Below, piece by piece: positions 28,107-43,346 of a stretch of 44,188 bases of DNA. A model generated the notes under the pieces. It had not been told where the DNA came from, made no database searches, and was given only the letters and a program-made list of their open reading frames with translations. The DNA comes from Gemmatimonadaceae bacterium (GTDB lineage Bacteria; Gemmatimonadota; Gemmatimonadetes; Gemmatimonadales; Gemmatimonadaceae). The DNA is taken from the NCBI GenBank assembly GCA_013697785.1, contig JACCWE010000039.1, positions 1 through 44,188 of the forward strand, read 5' to 3'. How positions within the stretch are numbered: position 1 is the first letter of the stretch; every line of letters begins with the position of its first letter. The position numbers and the translations under genes were made by a program.

Positions 28107-31100
28107 GTGGATCTTTCACGCCGAGATTTTCTCCGCTACACCGCCGGCGCCGGTGCCGGCACCGCGCTCGGCGGCATCGTGGGCATGGGCCTCACGCTCG
28201 CTCCCGCGCGGGCGAGGGCGCAGGTGCTCCGCATCAAGGGTAGCAAGACCGTGCCGAGCATCTGCCCATTCTGTTCCGTCGGATGCGGCACGCTCATCCA
28301 CGTGAAGGAAGGAGAGATCGTCAACATCGAGGGCGACCCCCGCAGCCCACACAGTGAGGGTACGCTCTGCCCCAAGGGCGCCGCGATCTACCAGCTCCAC
28401 AAGAACATCAATCGTCCCACGCGCGTGCTGCATCGCAAGCCCGGTGCGCCCGATTGGGAAGAGGTCGACATCGAGTGGGCGATGGACCGGGTCGCGGAGC
28501 TCGTGAGCAAGACGCGCGACGAGACGTTCATCGAGAAGCTCCCCAACGGCAAAAGCGTCAACGCGACGTCCTCCATCTTTCATCTGGGCGGCGCGACGCT
28601 CGACAACGAGTTCAATCACATCGCGCAGAAGTTCTGCCGCGGTTTCGGAATCGTCGCCATCGAGAACCAGGCGCGCATCTGCCATAGCTCGAGCGTCCCC
28701 GGACTCGGCGCGCGGCTCGGCCGCGGCGCGGCGACGATGTTTCCGCGCGATATGACGCACTCAGACTGCGTCGTGATCATGGGCTCGAACATGGCCGAGT
28801 GCCATCCGGTCGCGTTTCGCTGGCCGCTGAAGGCGCGCGTGAACGGCGCGAAGCTCATACATGTCGATCCCCGCTTCACCCGCACGAGCGCCAACTGCGA
28901 CATCCATGCGCCGATTCGTTCCGGCAGCGACATCGCCTTCCTCGGCGGAATCATCAACCACGTGCTCTCGAGTGATCGGTGGAACAGTGATCCGTTCTTC
29001 CAGAGCTTCGTGTCGACGTATACGAATGCGACGACGATCGTGTCGTCGGACTACAAGGACACCGAGGATCTGGACGGAGTCTTCTCCGGGCTCGAGGAAG
29101 CGAAGGAAGACGCGGATTGGCCGTTCAGCGGTGCGACGGGCGACTACGATCCGAAGAGCTGGCAGTACGCGGGAACGACCACGAAGGTGACGGGCGAGCA
29201 AGTCGCGTACACCGCGCGCGCGGGGCAGGAGGCACAGCACCAGAATCCTCAGGGCTCGAAGCCGGGTTACGGAGCCGGCGTGCCGCGCAACTCGGGGACG
29301 ACCGCTTCGCCGACGAAGTGGGACATACTCGTGCACGCGCTGCTGAAGCCGACGCCGCAGCGCGACCCGACGATGAAGGACCCGCACTGCGTGATGCAGC
29401 TGCTCAAGCGCCACTACTCGCGCTACACGCCGGAGATGGTCGAGCAGGTCACCGGATGTCCGAGAGCGAAGTTCCTGAAGGTGGCGGAGACGGTGCTCGC
29501 GAATTCCGGAGCGGATCGCACGACGAGCTTCGCGTACGCGGTCGCGTGGACGCAGCATACCGATGGTGTGCAGATGATCAACGCCTGCGCGTTACTGCAG
29601 CTCCTGCTCGGGAACCTGGGGCGCCCCGGCGGCGGGATCCTGGCGCTGCGCGGGCACGCATCGATCCAGGGTTCGACGGATGTGCCGACGCTGTATCACT
29701 CGATCCATGGGTACATGAGTGCCCCGACGGCGCTGAAGGAGCACGACACCCTGCACGATTATCTCGCGACGGAGACACAGCCGACCGGCTATTGGGCCAA
29801 CACGCCGAAGTTCATGGTGTCGTATCTCAAGTCGATGTACGGCGACGCGGCGAAGCCGGAGAACGACTATGGCTATGAGTGGCACGCCAAGATCTTCGGC
29901 GACTTCTCGCACATCGCGATGATGGCGGCGATGGCGGAGGACAAGGTGAAGGGGATGATCGTCGTCGGTCAGAATCCGGCGACCTCGCTCAACGCGTCCG
30001 CGCAGCGCATGGCGATGCGGAAGCTCGAGTGGCTGGTGGTGAAGGACAACTGGCTCACCGAGACCGCGATGCAGTGGAAGGACGGTCCGGAAATCACCGA
30101 CGGATCGGTAAAGGTGGAGGACATCAAGACGGAAGTGTTCTTCTTTCCTGCGACGCAGGTTGGCGAGTACAACGGGAGCTTTACGAACACGCAGCGAATG
30201 CTACAGTGGCATCACAAGGCGGCAGAGCCGCCGCGCGACTGCCGCACCGATACCTGGTTTTACTACCAGCTCGGCAAGCGACTCAAGAAGAAATACGCGG
30301 GAAGCACGCTGCCGCGCGATGAAGGATGGAAGCATCTCGTCTGGGACTACGAGCGCGATTCGTCGTCGGACGAGGCGCCGGATGCCAAGGGCGAGCCCGA
30401 CGAGCTGAAGCTGCTCCGCGAGATCAACGGCTTTCTCTCGAGTGATATGTCGAAGCAGCTCGGCGGCTTCGCGGAGCTGAAGGACGATGGCTCGACGACG
30501 TGCGCGAGCTGGATCTACTGTGGAGTCTTTCCGGCGTGGGATCGAAATCTGGCGGCGCGTCGCGAGCCGGATCCGCCGGCGCGTGCGCTCGCGGAGGCGA
30601 ATTGGGGATGGGCGTGGCCGGCCAATCGTCGGCTGCTCTACAATCGCGCATCGGCGGATCCATCGGGGAAGCCGTGGAGTGAGCGAAAGCGCTGGATCTG
30701 GTGGGATCCGAGCGCAGCGAATGCAATCGATGCGGGGACGGGAAAGACGACGGCGCCCGGGAAATGGGTCGGCTACGATGTTCCGGACTTCCCGGTGACG
30801 AAGGCGCCGAACGCGCCCGCGAAGAAGGGCGCCATCGGTCTCGATGCGCACTCGGGCACCGACCCGTTCATCATGAAGCCCGACGGTCGCGGCTGGCTGT
30901 TCGTGCCGACGGGACTGGTGGATGGGCCGTTTCCCGTGCACTACGAGCCCATCGAGTCGCCCGTGCACAACCAGCTGTACAAGCAACAGTTCAGCCCCGT
31001 GCTCAAGTGGTGGTCGAGAGGGAAGTCGTATAACCAGATTGCGCAGGTCGGTGATCCGCGCTATCCGTGCATCATCACGACGTACCGTCTCACCGAGCAC

Positions 31101-31451
31101 TATCTCTCGGGCGCGATGACGCGCTGGCTTCCGTATCTGGCCGAGCTGCAGCCGGAGCTCTTCTGCGAGATTGGGCGCGACCTCGCGCGCGAGCGCGGGA
31201 TCGCGAATCTCGACTTCGTCAAGATCACGTCGCCGAGGCATACGGTTCGCGCGAGGGCGCTGATCACGAACCGGATCGGGTCGATGAAGCTCGGTGGGAA
31301 GCAGGTGCATCACGTAGGGATGCCGTGGCACTGGGGATGGCAGGGGCTTGCGGTGGGAGACGTCGTGAACAATCTCACGAGCTGGGTGGGCGATCCGAAC
31401 GTTTCGATTCACGAGGGGAAGACGTTCGTGTGCAACGTGGAGAAGGCGTAG
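28107..31451 (+). CDS. Formate dehydrogenase catalytic subunit (molybdopterin, FdnG-like, Cys variant)
   Basis: 1114 residues from GTG 28107. A Tat signal (LSRRDFLRYTAGAGAG) directs folded export. The [4Fe-4S] motif ICPFCSVGCGTL starts near residue 52, with the fourth Cys in GTLCPKGAA. The position of selenocysteine (U196 in E. coli FdnG) is Cys192 here, in NQARICHSSSVP, encoded by TGC, so no Sec machinery is required. VVIMGSNMAECHPVAFRW and GNLGRPGGGILALRGHASIQ match the FdnG/FdhA branch of the DMSO reductase superfamily. Oxidises formate to CO2 at a Mo or W bis-MGD centre, probably facing the periplasm. The iron-sulfur and membrane subunits follow directly. Confidence 0.93.
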   Translation: MDLSRRDFLRYTAGAGAGTALGGIVGMGLTLAPARARAQVLRIKGSKTVPSICPFCSVGCGTLIHVKEGEIVNIEGDPRSPHSEGTLCPKGAAIYQLHKNINRPTRVLHRKPGAPDWEEVDIEWAMDRVAELVSKTRDETFIEKLPNGKSVNATSSIFHLGGATLDNEFNHIAQKFCRGFGIVAIENQARICHSSSVPGLGARLGRGAATMFPRDMTHSDCVVIMGSNMAECHPVAFRWPLKARVNGAKLIHVDPRFTRTSANCDIHAPIRSGSDIAFLGGIINHVLSSDRWNSDPFFQSFVSTYTNATTIVSSDYKDTEDLDGVFSGLEEAKEDADWPFSGATGDYDPKSWQYAGTTTKVTGEQVAYTARAGQEAQHQNPQGSKPGYGAGVPRNSGTTASPTKWDILVHALLKPTPQRDPTMKDPHCVMQLLKRHYSRYTPEMVEQVTGCPRAKFLKVAETVLANSGADRTTSFAYAVAWTQHTDGVQMINACALLQLLLGNLGRPGGGILALRGHASIQGSTDVPTLYHSIHGYMSAPTALKEHDTLHDYLATETQPTGYWANTPKFMVSYLKSMYGDAAKPENDYGYEWHAKIFGDFSHIAMMAAMAEDKVKGMIVVGQNPATSLNASAQRMAMRKLEWLVVKDNWLTETAMQWKDGPEITDGSVKVEDIKTEVFFFPATQVGEYNGSFTNTQRMLQWHHKAAEPPRDCRTDTWFYYQLGKRLKKKYAGSTLPRDEGWKHLVWDYERDSSSDEAPDAKGEPDELKLLREINGFLSSDMSKQLGGFAELKDDGSTTCASWIYCGVFPAWDRNLAARREPDPPARALAEANWGWAWPANRRLLYNRASADPSGKPWSERKRWIWWDPSAANAIDAGTGKTTAPGKWVGYDVPDFPVTKAPNAPAKKGAIGLDAHSGTDPFIMKPDGRGWLFVPTGLVDGPFPVHYEPIESPVHNQLYKQQFSPVLKWWSRGKSYNQIAQVGDPRYPCIITTYRLTEHYLSGAMTRWLPYLAELQPELFCEIGRDLARERGIANLDFVKITSPRHTVRARALITNRIGSMKLGGKQVHHVGMPWHWGWQGLAVGDVVNNLTSWVGDPNVSIHEGKTFVCNVEKA

Positions 31452-32329
31452 TGGGTACGCGCATGCTTCCCATCGTTTCCCAGGCTGTGTCCCCTGCTGC
31501 GCTCGCGAGCAAGCCCGAGCCTACAGGGTTTTTCACCGACACGACCATCTGCATCGGCTGCAAGGCGTGCGAGGTCGCGTGCAAGGAATGGAACCAGCTC
31601 CCCGCACGCGGTGACGGCGGCGCGCATCTCGAGATGAGCGGGCAGAGCTACGACAACACGCTCGAATTGAGCGGAGACTCGTGGCGCCACGTCAAGTTCA
31701 TCGAGCAGTTCCCCGAGCCGTACGAGGGTCGCTGGCTCATGATGAGCGATGTCTGCAAGCACTGCGTGCAGGCGCCCTGCCTCGAGGTCTGTCCCACCGG
31801 TGCGATCATCCGCACGGAGTTCGACACGGTCGTGATCCAGTCGGACACGTGCAACGGATGCCGTGACTGCATCGGCGCATGTCCGTTCGGGGTGATCGGA
31901 ATCAATCACGTGTCGAACACGGCGCAGAAGTGCACGCTCTGCTACGATCGCACGAGCGTCGGCCTCGAGCCCGCGTGCTCGAAGGCGTGCCCGACGGACT
32001 CGATCCAGTTTGGTCCGATCTCCGAGCTGCGCGTGCGCGCAGAGGCACGGGCGGTGCAGCTCCGCGAGCAGGGCGAGACGCGCGCCTATCTATACGGCGC
32101 CGATCCCAACGGGCCACTCGGCGGACTCAACTCGTTCTATCTGCTGGTCGATGAGCCAGAGGTGTACGGGCTGCCGCGCGATCCGAAGCTTCCGTCGCGG
32201 AATCTGGCGAAAGGCTCACTGCTCTCGAGCATCGCCGCATTTGGAATGGCGGTGGCGGGTGCGCTCACGTTGCGAGGGCGCCGCATGAAGGAGGTCGCTG
32301 AGGCCTCGACTCCGGAGCACGTGAGCTAG
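31451..32329 (+). CDS. Formate dehydrogenase iron-sulfur subunit (FdnH-like)
   Basis: 292 residues from GTG 31451, overlapping the last base of the previous stop and preceded by GGAGAAGG; ATG 31463 is an alternative with poorer spacing. Sixteen Cys for four [4Fe-4S] clusters are visible in CIGCKACEVACKEW, CKHCVQAPCLEVCP, CNGCRDCIGACP and CTLCYDRTS with CSKACP. A single C-terminal helix (LLSSIAAFGMAVAGALTL) is placed like the membrane anchor helix of FdnH. Carries electrons from the molybdenum subunit to the quinone-reactive subunit. Confidence 0.93.
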   Translation: MGTRMLPIVSQAVSPAALASKPEPTGFFTDTTICIGCKACEVACKEWNQLPARGDGGAHLEMSGQSYDNTLELSGDSWRHVKFIEQFPEPYEGRWLMMSDVCKHCVQAPCLEVCPTGAIIRTEFDTVVIQSDTCNGCRDCIGACPFGVIGINHVSNTAQKCTLCYDRTSVGLEPACSKACPTDSIQFGPISELRVRAEARAVQLREQGETRAYLYGADPNGPLGGLNSFYLLVDEPEVYGLPRDPKLPSRNLAKGSLLSSIAAFGMAVAGALTLRGRRMKEVAEASTPEHVS

Positions 32330-32330
32330 A

Positions 32331-33272
32331 ATGCAGACGAATCTGCCGAGCACCTTCTTCACGGCGCCGCCGGAGTTCGGGTGGATAATCATCCTGTACT
32401 TCTTCATCGGTGGAATTGGCGGAGGCTCGCTTCTGCTCGCGGGGCTGCTCCGGCTCTTCGGTATTCCGGCGGACCGGCCGTACATTCGACTCGCGAGCTT
32501 CCTCGCGGTCGTGTGCGCAGGCATCAGTGCCGTTCTGCTCATCGCTGATTTGTCGTCGCCGCTGCGCTTCTGGCACATGGTCATCCAGGACCACACGCTC
32601 CTGCCGATGTTCAAGTGGTGGTCGGCGATGTCGGACGGCGTATGGATTCTGCTTGCGTTCAGCCTCTTCGCTGGCACGGCGACGATCGATGCGTTGCAGG
32701 ACATCGAGTGGCCGCCGATGCGCACACTCCGCTCGCTGCTGCGCGTCGTGCGCTTCATCTCGCGCCCTCCCTTTGCCACGATCAGCGCGATCGGCGGCAT
32801 CGTCTCCGGACTGTCGCTCGCCGGATACACCGGCGTGCTGCTGGCCGAGACGAATCGCCCGATCTGGTCCGATTCGTCTTGGCTCGGAATCGTCTTTCTG
32901 ATGTCGGCGCTGTCGACATCGATGGCGGCAGTGATGCTCCTCTCGCACTGGCGGCGGGTGCACGAGACATCGACTCTGGAGTGGCTCACGCGCTTCGATC
33001 TCGTGGCGATGGTACTCGAGCTCGTCGCTATCGTCTGCTTCGTCATCTCACTCGGCAATGCGGCGCAGGCGCTCTACAACGTGTGGGGAGTGGCGCTGGT
33101 CTTGGGTGTAATGGTCGTCGGGATCGTGGTGCCGCTCGTGTTGCAGCGCCGCTCCAATCACGGCATCGTGCTGCCCGCGTCGCTCGTGCTCGCGGGTGGG
33201 CTGTTGTTGCGCGCCGTGGTGCTATTGGGCTCCGAGCGCATCCACGTGGTGGGCACGCAGGTCGTGCGATGA
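32331..33272 (+). CDS. nrfD: NrfD/PsrC-type integral membrane subunit
   Basis: 313 residues, about eight hydrophobic helices, starting one base after the preceding stop. The N-terminal EFGWIIILYFFIGGIGGGSL is the NrfD-family signature, followed by helices ending at LRAVVLLGSERIHVVG. NrfD proteins bind quinone without haem. Here it replaces the cytochrome b subunit (FdnI) found in E. coli, so electrons from formate probably enter the quinone pool through it. Its stop overlaps the next start (ATGA). Confidence 0.9.
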   Translation: MQTNLPSTFFTAPPEFGWIIILYFFIGGIGGGSLLLAGLLRLFGIPADRPYIRLASFLAVVCAGISAVLLIADLSSPLRFWHMVIQDHTLLPMFKWWSAMSDGVWILLAFSLFAGTATIDALQDIEWPPMRTLRSLLRVVRFISRPPFATISAIGGIVSGLSLAGYTGVLLAETNRPIWSDSSWLGIVFLMSALSTSMAAVMLLSHWRRVHETSTLEWLTRFDLVAMVLELVAIVCFVISLGNAAQALYNVWGVALVLGVMVVGIVVPLVLQRRSNHGIVLPASLVLAGGLLLRAVVLLGSERIHVVGTQVVR

Positions 33273-33526
33273 AGATCGCGCGCCGTGCGTGCGTCGTGGT
33301 GGTCGTCGGAGTGCTCGCAGCTTGCACGAGCCCGGAGGCGAAGCGCGCGCGCGGCGGCGGCGCTGGTGCAGATATTGGCAATCGCTCGGACTCGCTCCGC
33401 CTGCATTACGGCTCATCGATGTATGCGAAGACGCCGTGTCTCTTGCCCAAACCGCAATGCCCTGGACCGCTGGCGCAATCGGGACTCCCGCAGGACTTCC
33501 CGGCGGAATCGCACACGCCGAAGTAG
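33269..33526 (+). CDS. Small predicted lipoprotein in the formate dehydrogenase operon
   Basis: 85 residues from ATG 33269, overlapping the nrfD stop (ATGA). A signal peptide with lipobox VGVLAACTS ends near Cys20. The mature part is short and polar with two Cys (KTPCLLPKPQC) in a Pro-rich stretch. No family was recognised. Its last 70 bases overlap the start of fdhE in another frame. Probably an envelope accessory of the dehydrogenase. Confidence 0.65.
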   Translation: MKIARRACVVVVVGVLAACTSPEAKRARGGGAGADIGNRSDSLRLHYGSSMYAKTPCLLPKPQCPGPLAQSGLPQDFPAESHTPK

Positions 33527-34311
33527 ATCCGGCATGGCAGCCGTGGCTCGACCTGCTCGAGATCTCGCTCGAGGAGCCGGGCGACGCGTGGCGCGCCGCG
33601 CTTCGCGTTCGTGCCGATCGCGCGGCGGGCGCGCCGCTGCTCGACGGCGCACTGGTGAACATCGATGGGCAGCGTGCAGGCGCGTTGGTACAGCGGCTGG
33701 CGCAAGCTGCCGGCCTCGTGACCGATGGCTGTGATGCCCCAGCGATGATTCGTGCCGCACTGGCGCGCGACGAGGAGACTCTGCTCGGAATGGCTGACGA
33801 CTCGGACGTGCCGATCGATGCGTTCGCCGTCGTCGCGCACGCGGCCGCGATTCCGCTGTTGCACACCGCCGCCACGCTGCTGGATGCAAACGCCGCGACC
33901 GCCTGGCAGCGCAGCTACTGCCCCGTGTGCGGCGCACGTCCGTCGCTGGCCGAAGCGCGCGGGATCGAGCGCGACAGACGACTGCGGTGCGGCGCGTGCA
34001 GCGCGGACTGGCCGCTGGCGATGCTGCACTGCGCATTCTGCGACGAGCTCGACCACAAGAAGCTCGGCTCGCTGAGCGTGGACGGCGAAGGGCAGTTGCG
34101 GTACATAGAAACGTGCGAAAGCTGCCGCGGATATCTCAAGGCAGTGAAGACGTTCGACGCGCTCACGTTCCGGTCGCTGATGCTGCTCGATCTGAGCACC
34201 ATTCCGCTCGACCTCATCGCACACGAGCGCGGCTATGCGCGGCCGGCGAGGCCCGGGTGGGCGCCGCACGTGGAGCTGGCCGCGTGGCCCGAACGCGGCA
34301 CGATGCCATGA
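33457..34311 (+). CDS. fdhE: Formate dehydrogenase accessory protein FdhE
   Basis: 284 residues from ATG 33457, the first plausible start upstream of the recognisable domain; the next candidate (GTG 33654) would remove 66 residues. Four paired-Cys sites (YCPVCGARP, RCGACSADW, HCAFCDE, TCESCRGY) and the C-terminal RSLMLLDLSTIPLDLIAHER are typical of FdhE. Known members bind iron through such motifs and are needed for activity of Tat-exported formate dehydrogenases, consistent with the Tat signal on the catalytic subunit. It overlaps the lipoprotein gene by 70 bases and the next gene by ATGA. Confidence 0.9.
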   Translation: MPWTAGAIGTPAGLPGGIAHAEVDPAWQPWLDLLEISLEEPGDAWRAALRVRADRAAGAPLLDGALVNIDGQRAGALVQRLAQAAGLVTDGCDAPAMIRAALARDEETLLGMADDSDVPIDAFAVVAHAAAIPLLHTAATLLDANAATAWQRSYCPVCGARPSLAEARGIERDRRLRCGACSADWPLAMLHCAFCDELDHKKLGSLSVDGEGQLRYIETCESCRGYLKAVKTFDALTFRSLMLLDLSTIPLDLIAHERGYARPARPGWAPHVELAAWPERGTMP

Positions 34312-34655
34312 GCGTGACGCCGACGGAGCTGTGCCGCGGGATGCTCGCTGCGCTCGACGCCAGCGAGGGACGGAGAAAGCGCCGCTCGCGCAACACGACG
34401 GCTGATTCGATCGGGCTCGAGATCCAGCGCGAGCTGCTGACGGACGCGGTGCGCGACGCGCCAAGCGACGCGAGTTTCGAACGGTGGCTGCAGGAGCGTT
34501 GCGCAGCGCAGGGCGAGAGCGACGGCGCGCATCGCGCGATGGCGTTGATGATTTGGCACGAATGGCAGCTCGCATCGCAACTGGAAGGCGGGGGCGCGTG
34601 GCTCACGACGGGTGCGCGGTCGGACGATCGCGAGGAGGCTGGGGATGCGACGTGA
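34308..34655 (+). CDS. Hypothetical 115-residue soluble protein in the formate dehydrogenase operon
   Basis: Starts at the ATG overlapping the fdhE stop (ATGA) and overlaps the next gene by 11 bases. The sequence is helical and charged, with no signal peptide or membrane segment. RRKRRSRNTTADSIGLEIQR is followed by LLTDAVRDAPSDASFERWLQ and MALMIWHEWQLASQL. No family was recognised. Because it is locked between fdhE and the last gene, a cytoplasmic role in enzyme maturation or regulation is the simplest guess. Confidence 0.65.
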   Translation: MSVTPTELCRGMLAALDASEGRRKRRSRNTTADSIGLEIQRELLTDAVRDAPSDASFERWLQERCAAQGESDGAHRAMALMIWHEWQLASQLEGGGAWLTTGARSDDREEAGDAT

Positions 34656-34911
34656 GCTCGTGGCGTGCGCGGCGATTGCGGCGCTGTTGGGTGGCGAGGG
34701 ATGCGTGCAGAGCGCGAGCAAGCGCGCCGAGCGGGCGTCGGTGCGGGCGAAGGAAGCGGCGCCCGTGCGCGCAACGCCCACGGTTCAGCGCGTGACGATA
34801 CCGCGCGACTCGGGACGCATTCTCTACGATGCGCCGACAGATCTGTCGGACAGCGCCGCGCACCGGGCGGCTGCGCAGCTGTCGAAGGGCGAGTCGATCA
34901 GTCCTTCCTGA
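34645..34911 (+). CDS. Small exported protein, last gene of the formate dehydrogenase operon
   Basis: 88 residues from ATG 34645, with AGGAGG six bases upstream. The N-terminus MRRELVACAAIAALLGGEGC looks like a signal peptide ending at a Cys, but the residues before that Cys (GEG) are not a standard lipobox, so lipidation is uncertain. The mature part is basic, then Asp/Ser-rich (LYDAPTDLSDSAAHR). No family was recognised. Confidence 0.6.
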   Translation: MRRELVACAAIAALLGGEGCVQSASKRAERASVRAKEAAPVRATPTVQRVTIPRDSGRILYDAPTDLSDSAAHRAAAQLSKGESISPS

Positions 34912-35181
34912 GACTCCCTGCGAGGCATCGTGCGCGAGGCGACTCGACTGCACAATGATCCATTTATGATGAAGCGCTGCTGACGTGCCCGCTCGTCACT
35001 GGAACGCGATGTGCACTCCTCATCTGCGCCGCGATGCGGGAGCGCGAGTGCGCATCGATCGCGGTGAATCGCTTCGATGCCTCACGCGGTTTGATGATCG
35101 ACGATGCGCCGCGCCAGGCACCTCGAGGCGATTGGCCTGCTGCAACGGCGTACGACTGGCGTCAACGGCGAGGACGACTCC
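34912..35181. other. Gene-free gap between formate and alcohol oxidation operons
   Basis: 270 bases with no convincing gene; the short open frames lack recognisable protein character. TATGAT at 34965-34970 is the only good -10-like element, and its -35 partner is weak. The gap probably holds the promoter of the downstream oxidation module. Confidence 0.45.
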
Positions 35182-35985
35182 ATGAATGAATGGCATCATG
35201 GCAAGGCGCACGGCTCCGCAGTCGTTATCGCCATGCTGCTCACGGTCGTTGCCGCGGGGTGCAACAAGAGCCCGAGCACAAACGCGAATGCGACTGGTCT
35301 CGCATCGTCCGACTCCTCGGCCAGTGGACGCGTGGGGTGTGATAACATCCCGTCGGCAGACGATCTCAAAAAGTGGCTCCTCACGGCGCCCGATTCCGGG
35401 AACGCCGGCGGCATGTTCGCCGGAAAACAGGAATGGGCCACGGTCGTGAATCGCGATGGCGTCGTATGCGCGGTGGCGATCGCGACGGCGGATCCGAGCG
35501 CGGCCTGGATGGGGAGTGAAGCGATCTCCAAGGCGAAGGCCTTCACTGCGAACGCCTTCAGCACCGACACGCTGGCGCTCTCGACGGCGCGTCTATACAC
35601 CTTGTCCCTACCCGGTCACTCGCTGTGGAGTGTCGCGAACGGCAATCCGTTTCGTCCGGACTGCTTCGACAAGCCGACGAAAACGGGAACCACGGATCAC
35701 AAAATCTGTGGAGGTACAATCGCATTCGGCGGCGGCGTACCGCTCTACAAGAATGGGCGGAAGGTTGGCGGACTGGGACTCAGCGGCGATACGCCTTGTG
35801 CCGATCACGAGATCGCCAAGCGCATCCGCAACTTCCTCGGCTACAATCCCGGCAAGGGACCGTACGTCGACGACATCACCTACAGCAGCGTCGATCATCC
35901 ATCGATCTACACGCATCCGCTCTGCCCGAATACCTGGCGCAACGGACAGAAGATCGGGGAAGAGCCAGTCGCGAGCGGATATTGA
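35182..35985 (+). CDS. GlcG/HbpS-like haem-binding family lipoprotein
   Basis: 267 residues from ATG 35182 with AGGA eight bases upstream; the open frame extends upstream without protein character. The lipobox LLTVVAAGCNKS places the lipid on about Cys24. The domain shows the GlcG/HbpS pattern: GVVCAVAIATADPSAAWMGS, then AISKAKAFTANAFS, then GTIAFGGGVPLYKNGRKVGG with LGLSGDTPCADHEIAK. Family members bind haem or small metabolites and are often found next to PQQ alcohol dehydrogenases, as here. A long Cys-containing C-terminus (PGKGPYVDDITYSSVDHPSI to SGY) extends beyond the core domain. Confidence 0.8.
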   Translation: MNEWHHGKAHGSAVVIAMLLTVVAAGCNKSPSTNANATGLASSDSSASGRVGCDNIPSADDLKKWLLTAPDSGNAGGMFAGKQEWATVVNRDGVVCAVAIATADPSAAWMGSEAISKAKAFTANAFSTDTLALSTARLYTLSLPGHSLWSVANGNPFRPDCFDKPTKTGTTDHKICGGTIAFGGGVPLYKNGRKVGGLGLSGDTPCADHEIAKRIRNFLGYNPGKGPYVDDITYSSVDHPSIYTHPLCPNTWRNGQKIGEEPVASGY

Positions 35986-36015
35986 GTTGCGCACACGCAT
36001 CGAGGAAAAGCAGCC

Positions 36016-37863
36016 ATGATTGAGCGGAAGGGGCGCCGAGCGTCGATGCTGGTCGCGGGCGCTTTCGGAGCGCTGCTGTTTGCGGTCGCCTGCTCGAAGG
36101 ATTCGTCAGCTCCGGCGGTTGCCGTCGGGCGGACGTTGCCTGCGGGTTCAACGACGTCCACGTTCCCGGGCGCGGACAAGCCCGGCGAGTGGAATCAGCC
36201 CGGACGCGATTGGGCGAACACGCGCTTCTCACCGCTCGATGGCATCACTACCGCGAACGTCGCCAATCTCAAGGTCGCGTGGACATTCTCCACAGGCGTC
36301 CTGAATGGCCACGAGGGGCAACCGCTCGTCGTCGGCAGCACGATGTACGTGACGACGCCGTGGCCGAACATCACCTACGCACTCGATCTCGCCGACGCGC
36401 ATGCGCCCGCGAAGTGGGCGTTCGCGCCGCCGACCGCGGCTGCGTCGAAGGGTGAAGCGTGCTGCGACGTGGTCAATCGTGGAGCGGTCTACTCGAATGG
36501 CAAGATCATCTGGAATCTCCTCGATGGGCACACCGTTGCCGTCGACGCCGTCACGGGGAAGCAACTCTGGATGACGACACTCGCCGACATCAACAAGGGC
36601 GAGACGATGACCATGGCGCCGTTCGCCGTGAAGAACAAGGTCTTCGTCGGGGTGAGCGGCGCGGAGATGGGCATTCGCGGGTGGATCGCTGCACTCGACA
36701 TCAGCGACGGCCACGTGGTGTGGAAGGCATATAGCACGGGGCCGGACAAGGACGTTCTCATTGGGCCGAACTTCAAGCCGTACTACGCCTTCATGCGCGG
36801 CAAGGATCTCGGTGTGACGACGTGGCCATCGGATCAATGGAAGATCGGTGGCGCCAGCGTGTGGGGTTGGGTGACCTACGATCCCGAGACCAATCTGCTC
36901 TTCTACGGCACCGGAAACCCCGGTGCGTGGAATCCGGATCTCCGCCCTGGCGACAATCTCTGGTCGATGGCGATTTTCGCACGTGATCCCGACACGGGCG
37001 AGGCGAAGTGGGCGTATCAGATGACGCCACACGACATGTGGGACTACGACGGCATCAACGAGAACATCGTTGCCGACATTCCGATCGATGGGCAAACCCG
37101 CAAGGTGCTGCTGCACGCCGAGCGAAACGGGTTCGCGTACGTGATCGATCGGACCAACGGGCAGGTGATCAACGCCCAGCCGTTCGTCTTTACCAACTGG
37201 GCGACGGGCATCGATCTGAACACTGGCAGGCCGAACCGGGTGCCGGAGAAGGAGACCAGGCAGGGCGTCACCATCCGGAACATCTGCCCTTCTTCGACGG
37301 GAGGAAAGGACCAGCAGCCCACGGCGTTCTCGTCGCGCACGGGATTGTGGTATATCCCCGCCACCAACGACTGCATGGATTACGAAGGTACCGCGGTGAG
37401 CTACATCGCCGGCACGCCGTACCTCGGCGCCGACGTGCGTATGTACGCGGGCCCCGGTGGCAATCGCGGCGAGTTCATCGCGTGGGACCCGGGGCACGGA
37501 AGAAAGGTGTGGGGCATCAAGGAGAACTTTCCGGTGTGGAGCGGCGTGCTCGTCACCGCGGGCGACGTCGCCTTCTACGGCACGATGGACGGATGGTTCA
37601 AAGCCGTCGATGCGAGAACGGGTACACCGCTATGGAGCTTCAAGACCGGCTCGGGCATCATCGGAAATCCGATCGCGTATACCGGCCCTGACGGCAAGGA
37701 GTACGTCGCCATCCTCACGGGCGTCGGAGGCTGGATGGGGGCGATCGTGTCCGCGAATCTGTCTCCCGACGATCCCACCGCTGCACTCGGCGCCACGGGT
37801 GCATCGCCGGATCTGAAGAAGTACGTGGCGCCGGGAGGAATGTTGTTCGTGTTCGGACTCTGA
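36016..37863 (+). CDS. PQQ-dependent alcohol (methanol/ethanol) dehydrogenase, lanthanide-type (XoxF/ExaF-like)
   Basis: 615 residues from ATG 36016. The exported N-terminus ends at a likely lipobox (LLFAVACSKD). Eight-bladed propeller with the PQQ vicinal Cys149-Cys150 in GEACCDVVNRG, metal ligands Glu217 (SGAEMGIRGW) and Asn301 (YGTGNPGAWNPDLRPGDN), catalytic Asp343 and the extra Asp345 in TPHDMWDYDGINE. That second Asp is the marker of lanthanide-dependent enzymes; calcium enzymes have a smaller residue there. Spacing (84 residues Glu to Asn, 42 to the Asp) matches XoxF. Oxidises a primary alcohol in the periplasm and passes electrons to a c-type cytochrome, probably the one encoded next. 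It has no cytochrome domain of its own. Substrate not predictable. Confidence 0.92.
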   Translation: MIERKGRRASMLVAGAFGALLFAVACSKDSSAPAVAVGRTLPAGSTTSTFPGADKPGEWNQPGRDWANTRFSPLDGITTANVANLKVAWTFSTGVLNGHEGQPLVVGSTMYVTTPWPNITYALDLADAHAPAKWAFAPPTAAASKGEACCDVVNRGAVYSNGKIIWNLLDGHTVAVDAVTGKQLWMTTLADINKGETMTMAPFAVKNKVFVGVSGAEMGIRGWIAALDISDGHVVWKAYSTGPDKDVLIGPNFKPYYAFMRGKDLGVTTWPSDQWKIGGASVWGWVTYDPETNLLFYGTGNPGAWNPDLRPGDNLWSMAIFARDPDTGEAKWAYQMTPHDMWDYDGINENIVADIPIDGQTRKVLLHAERNGFAYVIDRTNGQVINAQPFVFTNWATGIDLNTGRPNRVPEKETRQGVTIRNICPSSTGGKDQQPTAFSSRTGLWYIPATNDCMDYEGTAVSYIAGTPYLGADVRMYAGPGGNRGEFIAWDPGHGRKVWGIKENFPVWSGVLVTAGDVAFYGTMDGWFKAVDARTGTPLWSFKTGSGIIGNPIAYTGPDGKEYVAILTGVGGWMGAIVSANLSPDDPTAALGATGASPDLKKYVAPGGMLFVFGL

Positions 37864-37900
37864 GAGCGATTCGAATGTCGCCTGAGACGGAGAGGGGCGG

Positions 37901-38404
37901 ATGGCAACTTCACGACGAATGGTGATCTGTGCACTCATTCTCTTCGCATGCGCATGCGAGGCGAATGAGGGGCGCGATGTGACGAAGGGCGGCCCGCCCG
38001 CGGGTGTCGCGCAGTCGAATGTCACGCCGGACACGATCCCCGCCGGCGTGATGCCGGGCATTCACGAGCGTGTCATTCTGGGCGACGTGAAAAACCCATA
38101 CACGAACAGTCCCGCCGCCGCACGAGAAGGACGCCAGCTCTTTCTCATGTACAACTGCGTCGGATGCCACGGTGGCCGTGCCGGCGGCGGAATGGGGCCG
38201 AGCCTTCGCGACAGCGCGTGGAGCTACGGCAGCACCGACGCCGATCTCTTCGCGACGATCGTCGAGGGACGACCCGCCGGGATGCCGACGTGGGGCGGCA
38301 AGATTCCCGAGGATCAGATCTGGAAGCTGATCGCGTACGTACGCACGCTGCGCACGCCGCAGGAACCCGATCCGCCGCCACCGTCCATTCAGCCAAATCG
38401 GTGA
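37901..38404 (+). CDS. c-type cytochrome, probable electron acceptor of the alcohol dehydrogenase
   Basis: 167 residues. The N-terminus RRMVICALILFACACEAN is a signal or lipoprotein signal. One haem site, CVGCH (about residue 86), and a probable axial Met in AGMPTWGGKIPEDQIWKL, followed by a helix IAYVRTL and a Pro-rich tail. Class I cytochrome c fold. Lies between the dehydrogenase and oxidase subunit II, and its stop overlaps the start of the latter (GTGA). This order suggests it carries electrons from PQQ to the oxidase. Confidence 0.9.
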   Translation: MATSRRMVICALILFACACEANEGRDVTKGGPPAGVAQSNVTPDTIPAGVMPGIHERVILGDVKNPYTNSPAAAREGRQLFLMYNCVGCHGGRAGGGMGPSLRDSAWSYGSTDADLFATIVEGRPAGMPTWGGKIPEDQIWKLIAYVRTLRTPQEPDPPPPSIQPNR

Positions 38405-39420
38405 GGCTGCGCGCGATGACCGGTTCGCGGCGCAGGCCAGGCTCGATGTTGCTGCTCCTGATGCTCGCCGCGTGCGTGCAGGCGCCATCGTTCATGCGGC
38501 CCGCGAGCGAGCCCGCGCATCGCATCGCCGTACTGGGCTGGTGGCTGATCGCCATCGCGACGATCGTCTTCGTCGTCGTCATGGTGCTGCTGCTCGTGCC
38601 ACTCATGCATCGACGCCAGGAGATCGCGCACGCGGACGTGCACGGTGGTGGCGGCGAGCGCATGATCCTGATCGGAGGCGCGCTCATCCCCGCGATCATC
38701 CTGATCGCCGTCTTTCTCTTTTCGCTCCCGACGCTGTCGGCTACGATCACGCCATCCTCGCGCCCGCGCTACACGATCGAGGTCAGCGGACATCAGTGGT
38801 GGTGGGAGGTGACGTATCACACGGCGGACCCGAGCTTCCGCGTCACCACCGCAAATGAAATTCACATCCCCGTCGGTGAGGACATTGGCGTTCGCGTGAA
38901 CAGCCGCGACGTCGCGCACTCGTTCTGGGTTCCCGAGCTCCAGGGAAAGATCGATCTCATCCCCGGCCAGACGAACACCTTCTGGCTACGCGCGGACAAG
39001 CCCGGCATCTATCGCGGGCAGTGCGCGGAGTACTGCGGGATGCAGCATGCGCACATGGGTGTCGTGGTGGTCGCTCAGAGCGCGGCGCAGTATGCGGATT
39101 GGCTGCGCGGGCAGGAGGCGCCCGTAACGGCTCCGCGCACCACTGATGATTCGCTGGGTGCGCAGGCGTTTCAGCGAGGCGCGTGTTCGCTCTGCCACAC
39201 GATTCGGGGCACGGATGCGCATGGCGTGCTGGGGCCCGATCTCACCCACGTGGGGAGCCGTCTCACCCTTGCCGCGGGGATGATACCAAACACGCGCGGC
39301 CACCTCCAGGGGTGGATCGCCAACGCACAGGGAGTGAAGCCGGGCGTTGCGATGCCCACGCTCTACCTCGATGCGACGAGCCTGCAGGCGCTCGCCGCGT
39401 ACCTCGAGTCACTGCGCTAG
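38401..39420 (+). CDS. coxB: Cytochrome c oxidase subunit II with fused cytochrome c domain (caa3-type)
   Basis: 339 residues from GTG 38401 (GTGA overlap; ATG 38416 possible). Lipobox MLLLLMLAACVQAP, two membrane helices (VLGWWLIAIATIVFVVVMVL; LIGGALIPAIILIAVFLF), then the cupredoxin: HQWWWEV, DVAHSFWVPEL and the CuA site CAEYCGMQHAHM. A C-terminal cytochrome c domain has CSLCH and a Met ligand in GVAMPTLY. Accepts electrons from cytochrome c and passes them through CuA to subunit I. The fused cytochrome identifies the caa3 type. Confidence 0.95.
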   Translation: MRLRAMTGSRRRPGSMLLLLMLAACVQAPSFMRPASEPAHRIAVLGWWLIAIATIVFVVVMVLLLVPLMHRRQEIAHADVHGGGGERMILIGGALIPAIILIAVFLFSLPTLSATITPSSRPRYTIEVSGHQWWWEVTYHTADPSFRVTTANEIHIPVGEDIGVRVNSRDVAHSFWVPELQGKIDLIPGQTNTFWLRADKPGIYRGQCAEYCGMQHAHMGVVVVAQSAAQYADWLRGQEAPVTAPRTTDDSLGAQAFQRGACSLCHTIRGTDAHGVLGPDLTHVGSRLTLAAGMIPNTRGHLQGWIANAQGVKPGVAMPTLYLDATSLQALAAYLESLR

Positions 39421-39429
39421 GAGGACGAC

Positions 39430-41313
39430 GTGGCCAGCATAGCCGCACGACTCGATGAAGAGTGGCGGACGCCGCACTCGCTCTATGGCGAGCTGTCGAC
39501 GGTCGACCACAAGAAGATCGGCAAGCGGTATCTGGTCACCGCCTTCGTCTTCCTCATCATTGGCGGACTCGAAGCGGCACTGATGCGCGCCCAGCTCATC
39601 GGACCGAATGAGCGATGGCTGAGCCCCGACCAGTACAATCAGCTCTTCACGATGCACGGCACGACGATGATTTTCTGGTACGCGTCGCCGGTACTGAGCG
39701 GATTCTCGAACTACCTCTGGCCGCTCATGCTCGGCTCGCGCGACATGGCGTTCCCGCGCGTGAACGCGCTGAGCTACTGGACCTTTCTCTTTTCGGGACT
39801 CTTTCTCTACACGAGCCTGTTCCTGGGGCAGATGCCCGATCGCGGCTGGTTCGCGTACGCGCCCCTCACCGAGCTGCAGTATTCACCGGCGCTGAACATG
39901 GATTTCTACGCGCTCGGGCTGCTTTTCCTCACCATCTCCACCACCATTGGCGCGATCAACTTCGTCGCGACCGCCTTCTCGGTCCGCGCGCCAGGGATGT
40001 CGATCAACCGCCTGCCGATCTTCATCTGGAGCACGCTCACGACGTCGTTCTCCATGATCTTCGCACTTCCGGCACTGAGTGTCGCCTGCGTGTACCTCTG
40101 GTTCGACCGCCGTCTCGGCATGCACTTCTTCGATCCTGCGCAGGGCGGCAGCGCGATGCTGTGGCAACATCTGTTCTGGGTCTTCGGCCATCCGTGGGTC
40201 TACATCATCGTCCTTCCCGCCATGGGAATCGCATCGATGGTGATCCCGACGTTCTGCAGACGCCCGATCGCGGGGTACACGTACGTCGCGCTGGCCACCG
40301 TCAGCACCGGCGTGCTCGGCTTCGGCGTGTGGGTGCACCACATGTTCGCGACAGGGCTGCCACCGCTGTCGATGACGTTCTTCAGCGGCGCGAGCATGAC
40401 GATCGTGATCCCGAGTGCCGTGAGTCTGTTCGCGTGGCTCGCGACACTCTGGGGCTCGAAACCAGTGATTCGCACGCCCATGCTGTTCATGCTCGGCTTC
40501 ATCTGCCTGTTCGTGATCGGCGGATTGAGCGGCGTCGCGACGGCCGTGGTGCCCTACGACTGGCAGCTCACGGACACGTACTTCATCGTGGCGCACATTC
40601 ACTACGTGCTCATCGGCATCAACCTCTTCCCGGTGATCGGGGGGCTGTATTACTGGTTTCCGAAGATGACGGGTCGGATGCTCGACGAGCGCCTCGGACG
40701 ATGGAATTTCTGGGTGATGTTCATCGGCATGAACGTCGGATTCTTTCCGATGCACATCGCCGGATTGCTCGGCATGCCGCGCCGGATTTACACCTACGAT
40801 GGCTCGATGGGATGGAACACGGTGAATCTCGTTACTTCGCTCGGCGCCTATCTCTTCGCGATCGGCGTGTTGATGTTCGTGTGGAATGTGATCAAGAGCC
40901 GGGTGCGCGGTGCGATTGCCGCTGGCAATCCATGGGACGCGAGCACGCTTGAGTGGTCGACGAGCTCGCCGCCGCCGGAGTACAACTTCGAGGTGATTCC
41001 CACGGTCCGCAGTCGTGATCCGTTGTGGGAGGACCGCCTCGAGCCGCCGGAGCAAAGCTCGCTGCGCGAAGGTCCGACACTGACCGACGGACGACTCACG
41101 GTGCAAAGCGCTCCGCTGGATGCGGACAGGGTGCGGCTGCTTCATATGTCGGAGGACACGCTGCTGCCACTGATCGTCGCGCTGGTGATGCTCGCGCTCT
41201 TCTATGCGTTGCTGTTCCGCATCTGGGGGCTGGCGCTCGCGGCCGCGGTGATGCTAGGCGTCGCGACGGCGTGGTGGCTGTGGCCGCAGCATCCAGAGCA
41301 CGGGGAGGGCTGA
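39430..41313 (+). CDS. coxA: Cytochrome c oxidase subunit I lacking canonical proton-channel residues
   Basis: 627 residues from GTG 39430, with GGAGG upstream. Redox ligands are intact: His76 (haem a, MHGTTMIF), CuB His254/303/304, cross-link Tyr258, haem a3 His389 and haem a His391 in VAHIHYVL. Against Rhodobacter numbering, Glu286 of the D channel is Trp256 (FGHPWVYIIVLPAMG) and Lys362 of the K channel is Ser332 (IPSAVSLFAWLATLWG). The YS motif of A2-type oxidases is absent too, while the D-channel entry Asp105 is kept. About 14 helices, with an extra C-terminal helix pair (LPLIVALVMLALFYALLFRI) beyond the usual 12. Catalyses oxygen reduction; whether it pumps protons is unclear. Confidence 0.95.
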   Translation: MASIAARLDEEWRTPHSLYGELSTVDHKKIGKRYLVTAFVFLIIGGLEAALMRAQLIGPNERWLSPDQYNQLFTMHGTTMIFWYASPVLSGFSNYLWPLMLGSRDMAFPRVNALSYWTFLFSGLFLYTSLFLGQMPDRGWFAYAPLTELQYSPALNMDFYALGLLFLTISTTIGAINFVATAFSVRAPGMSINRLPIFIWSTLTTSFSMIFALPALSVACVYLWFDRRLGMHFFDPAQGGSAMLWQHLFWVFGHPWVYIIVLPAMGIASMVIPTFCRRPIAGYTYVALATVSTGVLGFGVWVHHMFATGLPPLSMTFFSGASMTIVIPSAVSLFAWLATLWGSKPVIRTPMLFMLGFICLFVIGGLSGVATAVVPYDWQLTDTYFIVAHIHYVLIGINLFPVIGGLYYWFPKMTGRMLDERLGRWNFWVMFIGMNVGFFPMHIAGLLGMPRRIYTYDGSMGWNTVNLVTSLGAYLFAIGVLMFVWNVIKSRVRGAIAAGNPWDASTLEWSTSSPPPEYNFEVIPTVRSRDPLWEDRLEPPEQSSLREGPTLTDGRLTVQSAPLDADRVRLLHMSEDTLLPLIVALVMLALFYALLFRIWGLALAAAVMLGVATAWWLWPQHPEHGEG

Positions 41314-41316
41314 ACC

Positions 41317-41958
41317 ATGGCCACCGCGCTCAGAGACGATGGCATGCGCGACGACGGACGTGCGAGCGGCGATCCGCGTCAGCTCGACACGCCGACAACG
41401 AGCGAGCGGCCGCCCGGGTGGTGGGGGATGGTCGGTCTCATCATGACCGAGGCCTCACTCTTCACCTTCCTGCTCTTCAGCTACTACTATCTCGGTTCCT
41501 TGTCGCCGCAGTGGCCGCCGGTCGCGCGACCCGAGCTCACGCTGAGCGGGCCGAATACGATGATCCTGCTGGCGAGCAGTGGAACGATGTGGTGGGGAGA
41601 GGCGGGCATCCGTCGGGGCAGTCGTGGAAGGCTGATCTCCGGGCTGGTGTTGACGTTCATCCTCGGTGCGGTCTTTCTGAGCATTCAGATGATCGAATAC
41701 CACAAGACGAAATTTCTTCCGCAATCGCACGCGTATGGGTCGGTGTTCTACACGATCACCGGCTTTCACGGCGCGCACGTGGCGATCGGGCTGCTGATGG
41801 TGCTGTTCGTGCTGGCGCGAGCGCTGTGCGGGCACTTCACGCCCGCCCGGCATCTCGCGATCAAAAATGCGGCGATGTACTGGCACTTCGTCGATATCGT
41901 GTGGCTCTTCGTGTTCATCACGATCTATATCACGCCGCGCTTCTGGTGGCATCAATGA
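41317..41958 (+). CDS. coxC: Cytochrome c oxidase subunit III
   Basis: 213 residues, starting three bases after coxA. About five helices with family motifs: GMVGLIMTEASLFTFLLFSY, ITGFHGAHVAIGLLMVLFVL and AAMYWHFVDIVWLFVFITIY. Its length fits the five-helix form found with quinol and caa3 oxidases. A structural subunit thought to stabilise proton uptake and lipid contacts in subunit I. Its stop overlaps the next start (ATGA). Confidence 0.94.
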   Translation: MATALRDDGMRDDGRASGDPRQLDTPTTSERPPGWWGMVGLIMTEASLFTFLLFSYYYLGSLSPQWPPVARPELTLSGPNTMILLASSGTMWWGEAGIRRGSRGRLISGLVLTFILGAVFLSIQMIEYHKTKFLPQSHAYGSVFYTITGFHGAHVAIGLLMVLFVLARALCGHFTPARHLAIKNAAMYWHFVDIVWLFVFITIYITPRFWWHQ

Positions 41959-42422
41959 CGGGTGCGTCGCGGAGCGGTCCGTTTACATCGACGCCGGTGT
42001 GCTCGGGCGAAGCGGAGCGGGTTTCGATGCGCGCGCTCTGGTTCGGACTTGTTGGCGGTCCGCTCGTGTGGTCGATCAACGAGGTCGCCGACGCCGCGCT
42101 CGTATCGCACAATTGCTATCCCGCCGAATTTCCTCTTGCCGCACCCCTGTTTGGTGCACTGATCGGACTCGTAGCGGCCGTCAGCATCGCCGCCGTTCTC
42201 GTGGCAGTGATGGCGCTCGTCACTGCGCTCCGCAGCTGGAAAGCCGTTCGGGAACAGCCGAACAACGATGCCGGCGGGTCGCTCGCCGGGCCGCCGCCGG
42301 GGGGCCGATCACGCTTCATGGCGCGTGCGGGGATCGCGGTGAGCGTGCTCTTTCTCGGTGGCATCGTGCTGCAGACCGTGGCCCTCGCGATGGTGCGTCC
42401 CTGCGCGGGGCTGGCGCCGTGA
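41955..42422 (+). CDS. Small membrane protein associated with the oxidase operon
   Basis: 155 residues from ATG 41955 (ATGA overlap with coxC). Three or four hydrophobic helices: ALWFGLVGGPLVWSINEVAD, then FGALIGLVAAVSIAAVLVAV, then AGIAVSVLFLGGIVLQTVAL. Conserved-looking Cys residues lie on the probable periplasmic side (SHNCYPAEFP and MVRPCAG at the C-terminus). Similar unnamed membrane proteins with a terminal Cys are common in caa3 oxidase clusters. Function unknown; assembly or copper handling are guesses. Its stop overlaps the next gene (GTGA). Confidence 0.75.
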   Translation: MTGASRSGPFTSTPVCSGEAERVSMRALWFGLVGGPLVWSINEVADAALVSHNCYPAEFPLAAPLFGALIGLVAAVSIAAVLVAVMALVTALRSWKAVREQPNNDAGGSLAGPPPGGRSRFMARAGIAVSVLFLGGIVLQTVALAMVRPCAGLAP

Positions 42423-42814
42423 GAGGCATTCGCGAGGCGGTGCGCGGAGTCGTGCTCGCCGCACTGTGCTGCGCAATCATCGCGTCGACGGTGGCGTGCC
42501 GCGATGATTCCGGTCCCATCCGTCCGATCGCCGGCGGTGATCCCGCGCGCGGCGCGACGCTCATCAAGGCGTTCGGCTGCGGCACCTGCCACGACATTCC
42601 GGGCATCGACGGCGCCGTCGGCCTCGTGGGGCCGCCGCTCGTTCATTTTGCGCGCCACAGCTACATCGCGGGCGAGCTGCCGAACACGGGCGACAACCTG
42701 ATTCGCTGGATCAGGTCGCCGCGTGCGGTGGAACCGGGCACCGCGATGCCGGATCTCGGAGTGGGTGAAAGCGACGCGCGCAACATGGCGGCGTACCTGT
42801 ACACGCTGCGCTAG
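42419..42814 (+). CDS. c-type cytochrome, end of the alcohol oxidation module
   Basis: 131 residues from GTG 42419 (GTGA overlap). Signal/lipobox LCCAIIASTVACRDD. One haem motif, FGCGTCHDIPG, and a Met ligand in GTAMPDLGVG, with C-terminal helix RNMAAYLYTLR. The sequence GLVGPPLVHFARHSYIAGEL followed by PNTGDNLIRWIRSP parallels the cytochrome c domain fused to subunit II, suggesting they arose from a common domain. May deliver electrons to the oxidase. Confidence 0.88.
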   Translation: MRGIREAVRGVVLAALCCAIIASTVACRDDSGPIRPIAGGDPARGATLIKAFGCGTCHDIPGIDGAVGLVGPPLVHFARHSYIAGELPNTGDNLIRWIRSPRAVEPGTAMPDLGVGESDARNMAAYLYTLR

Positions 42815-42839
42815 CAGTACCGCGCCGAGCAAAGCTTCG

Positions 42840-43310
42840 TCAGCTGGCTTCGGGCGGATTTCTGGCGACGCCTTCGAGCACCGGCAACGCGCGCGCGAGT
42901 AGCGCGCGGTCGCGCGCCGGGAGCGCGCTGAGCGACGCCACGAGCGCGGCCACCCGCCGCTGGCGGCCGTCGTGGAGCAGCTTCGTCCCGCGCGCCGTCG
43001 CCTTTACGCGTACCACGCGCTTGTCGCTCGCATCGGCGACCCGGTCTACGAGCGCTTTCGCCTCGAGCATGATGATCAGCTTCGAGATCGTCGGCGGCCG
43101 CACCTGCTCGGCGCGCGCGAGGTCGCCGAGAGTGATGGGTCCGCCGAAGACGATGACGGAGAGGGCAGAGAGCTGGGGGGCGGGGAGGCCGGAGGCGTCG
43201 TCCTCGCGCCGGAGGCGGCGCAGGAGATGGAGCGCCGCGGAGTGGAGGCGGTCGGCGAGGTCGACGGTGCGGAGGCGGGAAGGGCGGGGTCTTGTGGTGG
43301 CGGGCGCCAT
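42840..43310 (-). CDS. MarR-family transcriptional regulator
   Basis: 156 residues from ATG 43310 (TTG 43316 is in frame). Winged helix-turn-helix: LSALSVIVFGGPITLGDLAR, recognition helix VRPPTISKLIIMLEAKAL, and wing VDRVADASDKRVVRVKATAR; the DxRxxR-like wing residues fit MarR. Dimeric repressor, usually released by a small ligand or oxidant. Divergent from the VOC gene, with two operators in between, so it probably represses both itself and that gene. Only 25 bases separate its stop from the last oxidase-module gene, which runs convergently. Confidence 0.9.
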   Translation of the reverse strand: MAPATTRPRPSRLRTVDLADRLHSAALHLLRRLRREDDASGLPAPQLSALSVIVFGGPITLGDLARAEQVRPPTISKLIIMLEAKALVDRVADASDKRVVRVKATARGTKLLHDGRQRRVAALVASLSALPARDRALLARALPVLEGVARNPPEAS

Positions 43311-43316
43311 GCGCAA

Positions 43317-43322
43317 TACTAT
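43317..43322 (-). promoter_or_regulatory. Possible -10 element of marR, leaderless transcript
   Basis: On the minus strand TAGTAT lies seven bases before the ATG at 43310, so transcription would begin at or near the start codon. It touches the first operator. No good -35 was found. Confidence 0.3.
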
Positions 43323-43341
43323 TAGTTAGCTAAGGTAACTA
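43323..43341. promoter_or_regulatory. MarR operator 1
   Basis: Inverted repeat TAGTTA-N7-TAACTA, 19 bases, both arms perfect. Located 13 bases upstream of the marR ATG, overlapping its probable promoter. Palindromes of this type are typical MarR-dimer sites. Confidence 0.75.
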
Positions 43342-43346
43342 TCCGA

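Follow-up and report, generated by a model that had tools for sequence, protein, structure and literature searches.

XoxF-linked haem-copper oxidases lacking the K-channel lysine: a distinct lineage in Gemmatimonadota and other phyla

By comparing the CoxA protein encoded in a 44,188-nucleotide stretch of DNA from a soil-dwelling member of the phylum Gemmatimonadota (the window) with those of other genomes, we identified a separate lineage among the A-family-like haem-copper oxidases, from which the K-channel lysine (Lys362) has been lost throughout. The subclade to which this CoxA belongs has additionally lost the D-channel glutamate (Glu286). The oxidase genes lie in a tight row of eight forward-strand genes together with a PQQ dehydrogenase and two cytochromes c (Table 1). 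We consider it fairly probable that this row encodes a periplasmic lanthanide-type alcohol chain with its own oxygen reductase, in which proton coupling is altered and probably weakened.

Table 1. Positions of the genes and CoxA motifs discussed, numbered from the first nucleotide of the window.
Feature	Position	Strand	Basis
Formate dehydrogenase operon (TAT-signalled alpha subunit, 4Fe-4S subunit, NrfD membrane subunit, FdhE)	28107..34311	+	
HbpS/GlcG-like lipoprotein, signal ...VVAAGC, accessory	35182..35985	+	PF03928, E 2.3e-13
XoxF-type PQQ alcohol dehydrogenase, 615 aa	36016..37863	+	TIGR03075, 4MAE match, ligands, tree
c-type cytochrome (CxxCH), candidate XoxG	37901..38404	+	PF13442, E 1.1e-16
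CoxB, subunit II; start GTG 38401 or ATG 38416	38401..39420	+	PF00116, PF00034
CoxA, subunit I, 627 aa	39430..41313	+	PF00115, E 8e-154; aligned to 6ADQ
GHPWVY motif in CoxA (canonical GHPEVY), Trp codon 40195-40197	40186..40203	+	
Ser332 of CoxA, at the K-channel Lys362 position (R. sphaeroides numbering)	40423..40425	+	
CoxC, subunit III	41317..41958	+	PF00510, E 1.5e-36
Gene 7, 155-aa membrane protein, three long helices predicted	41955..42422	+	
Terminal c-type cytochrome (CGTCH)	42419..42814	+	PF00034, E 8.3e-6
MarR-type gene, convergent, downstream of the row	42840-43316	minus	

The eight genes, with their order, coordinates and close spacing, were all present as the first-pass annotation had described them, and the gene identities it claimed were supported. 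All seven junctions, read off the sequence, measure at most 37 bases: 30 between the HbpS-like stop and the ATG of the dehydrogenase, 37 between the stop of the dehydrogenase and the ATG of the first cytochrome c, 9 between coxB and the GTG of coxA, and 3 between coxA and the ATG of coxC. The coxC stop overlaps the start of gene 7 (ATGA), as does the gene 7 stop that of the last cytochrome c (GTGA). The first cytochrome c either overlaps coxB (GTGA) or is separated from it by 11 bases, depending on which coxB start is used. A gap of about 270 bases lies upstream, and the row may be co-transcribed. A scan of 34600-43450 gave no sigma-70-like promoter, which is below the number in shuffled sequences; at high GC this is weakly informative. 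The neighbouring formate dehydrogenase operon is probably a separate unit; its inclusion in the alcohol-oxidation module was ruled out, as relatives show no such linkage (tblastn map).

The PQQ identity proposed for the dehydrogenase held, with 639 bits against TIGR03075 (PQQ methanol/ethanol dehydrogenase family; cut-off 480), but its ligands and tree position indicate a lanthanide-type XoxF instead of a generic alcohol dehydrogenase. The best solved relative is XoxF2 of Methylacidiphilum fumariolicum SolV (4MAE, 712 bits). Alignment to 4MAE, 7O6Z and 6OC5 places all four lanthanide ligands (E/N/D/D), the additional aspartate among them, in the protein, the same four as in 4MAE; in MxaF 4TQO the fourth metal site is Ala (E/N/D/A). 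Lanthanide-dependent methanol oxidation is predicted. In a tree whose references included no named XoxF3 or XoxF4 sequence, the dehydrogenase falls into its own clade (support 99), apart from the XoxF1, XoxF2, XoxF5 and MxaF references; the SolV enzyme sits on a separate branch. The genome carries pqqE and three other XoxF-type dehydrogenases, none with a cox neighbour. It lacks fae, which leaves an H4MPT-type methylotrophic route unsupported and the natural substrate uncertain.

The candidate XoxG matches the MoxG model with E 1e-16, yet stays under that model's cut-off. CoxB scores above the TIGR02866 cut-off and carries a CuA motif, CAEYCGMQHAHM, followed by a C-terminal cytochrome c domain (CSLCH), the subunit II architecture (CuA and a cytochrome c fused to it; PF00116 plus PF00034; CuA and CxxCH motifs) that characterises caa3-type oxidases. 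Gene 7 had no match in Pfam or NCBIfam; an alignment of 18 sequences shows W38, C53, G125 and C149 to be invariant (numbering minus the first Met). Its AlphaFold2 model, of moderate confidence (pLDDT 76), matched no PDB fold (best E 2). The HbpS-like lipoprotein, counted in the module by the first-pass annotation, is an occasional accessory and no fixed component: close homologues occur in only a handful of related clusters, and in Methylocella tundrae T4 an HbpS-like gene adjoins coxB.

In the row's CoxA, Glu286 is replaced by Trp and Lys362 by Ser, while the haem-copper ligands are intact. This loss of canonical proton-channel residues is the most unusual feature of the row and is absent from the first-pass annotation. 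Within the K-channel set Lys and Thr have both become Ser, and Ser and Tyr are kept. The oxidase had been called divergent, and the genome does encode a second, canonical CoxA elsewhere (G000:C40), to which the row's protein is 45-50% identical. We aligned 119 CoxA sequences, comprising 39 canonical proteins, 79 in one other clade and 1 distant row. Among the canonical CoxA from relatives, 39/39 retain both Glu286 and Lys362 and none is xoxF-linked (0/39). The other clade lacks Lys362 in 79/79, is mostly xoxF-linked and has an SH-aLRT support of 99, which does not change when a mixture model is used and the Mycobacterium reference is included; the distant row is likewise without the lysine. 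The histidines of haem a, haem a3 and CuB and the catalytic Tyr288 are invariant across the 118 CoxA rows compared. Replacement of Glu286 by Trp (GHPWVY) is a feature of the row's own subclade, where the Thr359 position is Ser in 28/28, the Ser332 position is Ala in 13/28, and the D-channel entrance residues D132, N121, N139 and N207 are kept in most members.

A row of xoxF, sometimes xoxJ, cytochrome c, coxBAC, gene 7 and cytochrome c recurs in Gemmatimonadota, Acidobacteriota, Verrucomicrobiota, Myxococcota and Proteobacteria. Since the same order is found in many loci of several phyla, the arrangement that the first-pass annotation saw in one genome is not a chance one. In searches that were not seeded on xoxF, 15 of 17 CoxA proteins at least 56% identical in relatives were near a xoxF, as were 19 of the 26 GHPWVY sites in 395 Gemmatimonadota genomes; a further 5 of the 26 have no nearby xoxF in the sequence available. 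Methylocella tundrae and Mesorhizobium sp. INR15 also carry GHPWVY oxidases near a xoxF. The oxidase is flanked by cytochromes c in most loci. Across the XoxF tree, the oxidase paired with the dehydrogenase changes about five times between two types lacking Lys362, and no xoxF-linked canonical type was seen among the CoxA compared.

Clusters of this kind have been published as xoxF3-cox clusters in Acidobacteria and Gemmatimonadetes (PMC10875860), so that the row represents a known kind of module. As described in the passages of that paper considered here, they share with the row XoxF, CoxI, CoxII, CoxIII, XoxG, another cytochrome c and, following CoxIII, a small hypothetical protein. The row differs from them in carrying an HbpS-like lipoprotein and lacking XoxJ and CtaG; in our genome xoxJ is found only at G000:C71 and C154, and ctaG only at G000:C48. 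The same passages report CtaG for Acidobacteria systems and XoxJ in only four Gemmatimonadetes systems, so XoxJ is not strictly defining. They contain no discussion of proton-channel residues or oxidase phylogeny. We did not find the oxidase itself described. No earlier description of lysine-less A-type oxidases was found in the literature searched, which covered few subscription journals. Bradyrhizobium coxMNOP may be a lead towards one.

Judged by its residues, the oxidase fits none of the A1, A2 and B definitions. It shares with A1-type enzymes (e.g. Mycobacterium aa3, 6ADQ) the sequence family, haem and CuB ligands, catalytic Tyr and CuA subunit II, but these have XGHPEVY with the D-channel glutamate where the row's CoxA has FGHPWVY, with Ser for the K-channel lysine. 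A2-type enzymes (YSHPXVY) likewise lack Glu286; they have a Tyr-Ser pair before HP instead of FG, and the A-type definition, A2 included, requires the missing lysine. The B-family ba3 enzymes resemble our CoxA in lacking both residues and having Ser at the Thr359 position. However, the row's CoxA matches A-type models, is 45-54% identical to the canonical A-type CoxA of relatives, has the D-channel entrance residues and lacks the B-type Tyr. A 2011 survey of 1216 enzymes found the defining channel residues missing from just 4, each of them B-like (PMC3084760).

In studied oxidases, mutating Glu286 or Lys362 stops distinct steps (PMC12901375, PMC10341450). The losses do not by themselves prove weaker pumping, because B-family oxidases do without both residues and yet pump protons with roughly half the efficiency (PMC12901375). 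The enzyme might be a fully coupled, specialised caa3 oxidase of normal energy yield whose channels have been relocated, for instance to a lysine-free K-channel of the B-family kind and a Trp/water route instead of Glu286. The retained D-channel entrance and the B-like serine at Thr359 are consistent with this, which we regard as possible but doubtful: the alternative B-family channel needs Thr, Ser and Tyr at the three K-channel positions (PMC3084760), where the row's CoxA has Ser332 (Ala in nearly half of its subclade), Ser329 and Ser269 and no Tyr, and in a column comparison no newly conserved acidic or basic residue offered itself as an obvious substitute for Glu286 or Lys362.

It is also conceivable, at a similarly low level of likelihood, that the enzyme is a general secondary terminal oxidase serving the whole cytochrome c pool, with adjacency to xoxF a mere convenience. 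The sites without xoxF point this way, one of which (L174) adjoins genes resembling alternative complex III, as do some Burkholderiaceae copies near GMC/gluconate-type dehydrogenases and the cox-less settings of the genome's other XoxF proteins; against it stand the flanking cytochromes and a xoxF linkage strongly conserved across phyla but absent from all 39 canonical CoxA. The private chain proposed by the first-pass annotation is upheld as regards linkage and not as regards exclusivity, and the oxidase is not strictly private to XoxF. A main role in another reaction, such as removal of O2 or nitric oxide to shield the periplasmic dehydrogenase, is quite improbable. Loss of the canonical proton channels would suit a non-conserving function, and the HbpS-like family is tied to haem and oxidative stress, but its gene is present in few loci, and CoxA retains intact the ligands of CuB and the haems as well as Tyr288, the catalytic residue of oxygen reductases.

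We read the enzyme, on balance, as a portable oxidase that serves periplasmic dehydrogenases and whose coupling to protons is altered and probably weakened. XoxF would oxidise an alcohol, probably methanol, in the periplasm and pass electrons to the XoxG-like cytochrome c, from which they would reach haem c and CuA of CoxB, then haem a, the haem a3-CuB centre of CoxA and O2. Proton uptake and pumping would be altered and would probably fall short of those of the cell's canonical oxidase, allowing periplasmic electrons to be discharged against less back-pressure from the proton gradient. The stronger proposal, that XoxF-associated oxidases of several phyla form a separate functional class with no canonical cytoplasmic proton uptake and little or no pumping, a portable energy-uncoupled electron exit, is rather unlikely and we offer it tentatively.

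Lanthanide-dependent XoxF is widespread in soil, and little is known about the fate of its electrons in organisms other than the well-studied methylotrophs. The oxidase lineage is widespread too, and alcohol oxidised through it may yield the cell little or no energy. If dedicated oxidases treat protons differently, current assumptions about the energy gained from methanol oxidation in soil would be mistaken, and the lineage would provide a natural set of enzymes without Lys362, and with or without Glu286, for testing long-standing ideas on proton channels.

Open reading frames and protein-family searches bear out the eight-gene row proposed by the first-pass annotation, and its claimed tight spacing holds at all seven junctions (≤37 bases), with an ATGA overlap at coxC/gene 7, a GTGA overlap at gene 7/last cytochrome and a possible overlap at cytochrome/coxB. 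Since these spacings are short, the eight genes are likely to be co-transcribed. Upstream, the distance to the genes following formate dehydrogenase is about 270 bases; the downstream neighbour is a convergent MarR-type gene. A protein with two aldehyde dehydrogenase stretches is encoded upstream of the formate dehydrogenase genes.

Coordinates of the features discussed (in the window unless a genome and contig are given)
Feature	Location	Strand	Size
Eight-gene row	35182-42814	+	
XoxF-type dehydrogenase	36016-37863		615 aa
Gene 7, membrane protein	41955-42422	+	155 aa
Aldehyde dehydrogenase-like protein	24734-27271		845 aa
Distant CoxA, locus L163	G001:C17:56379-57986		

The module is of a known kind. 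A XoxF-seeded scan yielded 80 loci from several phyla, and most of those with enough flank show the order xoxF-[xoxJ]-cytochrome-coxB-coxA-coxC, often followed by gene 7 and the last cytochrome. Close homologues of the HbpS-like lipoprotein occur in only a few clusters. The gene 7 family is uncharacterised, its alignment having an invariant Trp, Gly and two Cys; three long helices are predicted by a structural model, for which a fold search gave no match. Because published clusters (PMC10875860) carry a small hypothetical protein at the same position, gene 7 may belong to that family.

The dehydrogenase scores 639 bits against the PQQ methanol/ethanol family, and its best match among solved structures is methanol dehydrogenase 4MAE at 712 bits, with 7O6Z (616), 6OC5 (602), MxaF 4TQO (547) and, at about 340, ethanol-type enzymes scoring lower. 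Of the 113 rows of the XoxF tree, 112 have all four lanthanide ligands; the remaining one, the MxaF reference, carries Ala in the fourth position. Cox-linked xoxF sequences, few exceptions aside, form one clade (94 rows, support 99) separate from the XoxF1, XoxF2, XoxF5 and MxaF references. Gemmatimonadetes clusters of this sort are classed as XoxF3 in PMC10875860, a name used provisionally here since the tree holds no named XoxF3 or XoxF4 reference. Three further XoxF-type genes of the genome (51-63% identity) had no cox neighbour in the regions examined around them; pqqE is present and fae is absent. Seven loci (L026, L038, L041, L043, L051, L052, L059), mostly Binatota/Binatia records, form a XoxF clade with no cox neighbour within the loci examined.

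In its alignment to Mycobacterium 6ADQ, which is gap-free around the two sites, the window CoxA has GHPWVY for GHPEVY and Ser at the K-channel lysine; haem ligands, CuB ligands and Tyr288 are all intact. We compared 119 distinct CoxA sequences (39 canonical, a 79-member clade and L163) in quick trees with SH-aLRT support only. Both Glu286 and Lys362 are kept in every one of the 39 canonical sequences, none of which is linked to xoxF; these sequences include the host's own second CoxA, confirming a canonical cox elsewhere in the genome. The 79 form one clade (support 99, unchanged under a mixture model with the Mycobacterium reference added), and all lack Lys362. Its W subclade (n=28) has Trp at 286 in 27 and Phe in one, with Ala, Ser, Thr, Gln or Gly at 362; its Q subclade (n=51) keeps Glu286 in 50 and has Gln at 362 in 49, D132 being mostly replaced by Asn or Ser. 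One xoxF-linked CoxA basal to the Q subclade (L115, G019:C3) has Asp at 286 and Asn at 362. Loss of Lys362 is not unique to the clade, since L163, outside both groups and not xoxF-linked, keeps Glu286 and has Ile at 362.

By literature definitions the window oxidase fits none of types A1, A2 and B, and it appears to be an undescribed variant in the literature searched, mostly outside subscription journals. In oxidases that have been studied, altering Glu286 stops steps in the oxidative phase, and altering Lys362 prevents the reduction of haem a3 (PMC12901375, PMC10341450). Since B-family oxidases without both residues still pump, at about half efficiency (PMC12901375), we go no further than to infer from the residues that proton coupling of the window oxidase is probably weaker.

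The oxidase had also been proposed to be private to the dehydrogenase. Of the 79 clade members 75 are xoxF-linked, a fraction biased because most were retrieved through xoxF, and the XoxF-seeded scan is unfit to gauge linkage for the same reason; the fair counts come from two oxidase-seeded searches. Among the relatives searched, xoxF lies near 15 of 17 CoxA with at least 56% identity. Across 395 Gemmatimonadota genomes, 26 GHPWVY sites were found in 24 genomes: 19 are close to xoxF, which favours a private chain, and two reach a contig end beside xoxG or xoxJ, but five (one cut on one side) have no xoxF in the available sequence, and strict exclusivity thus does not stand. Two loci, L173 (G024:C32) and L174 (G052:C27), have W-type oxidases without xoxF; judged from sequence alone, the genes upstream resemble molybdenum hydroxylase subunits at L173 and an alternative complex III subunit at L174. 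At G002:C25 (L010/L165) a single xoxF lies between two oppositely oriented W-type oxidase operons.

Among plasmids, a 54-kb one of Mesorhizobium sp. INR15 (L225, NZ_CP045498.1) carries in a single row pqqABCDE, xoxF, cytochrome, coxBAC with a W-type oxidase, and an assembly gene, and Methylocella tundrae T4 has the oxidase and an HbpS-like gene close to xoxF and its neighbours. In Paraburkholderia, Burkholderia and Caballeronia, about 20 kb of sequence at the copies examined contains no xoxF; GMC oxidoreductase genes and genes of gluconate 2-dehydrogenase type are found close to the W-type oxidases of Burkholderia multivorans and Caballeronia (L228, L229). Given these mixed neighbourhoods, we read the oxidase as a portable module that probably serves periplasmic dehydrogenases and that, in Gemmatimonadota, most often adjoins XoxF.
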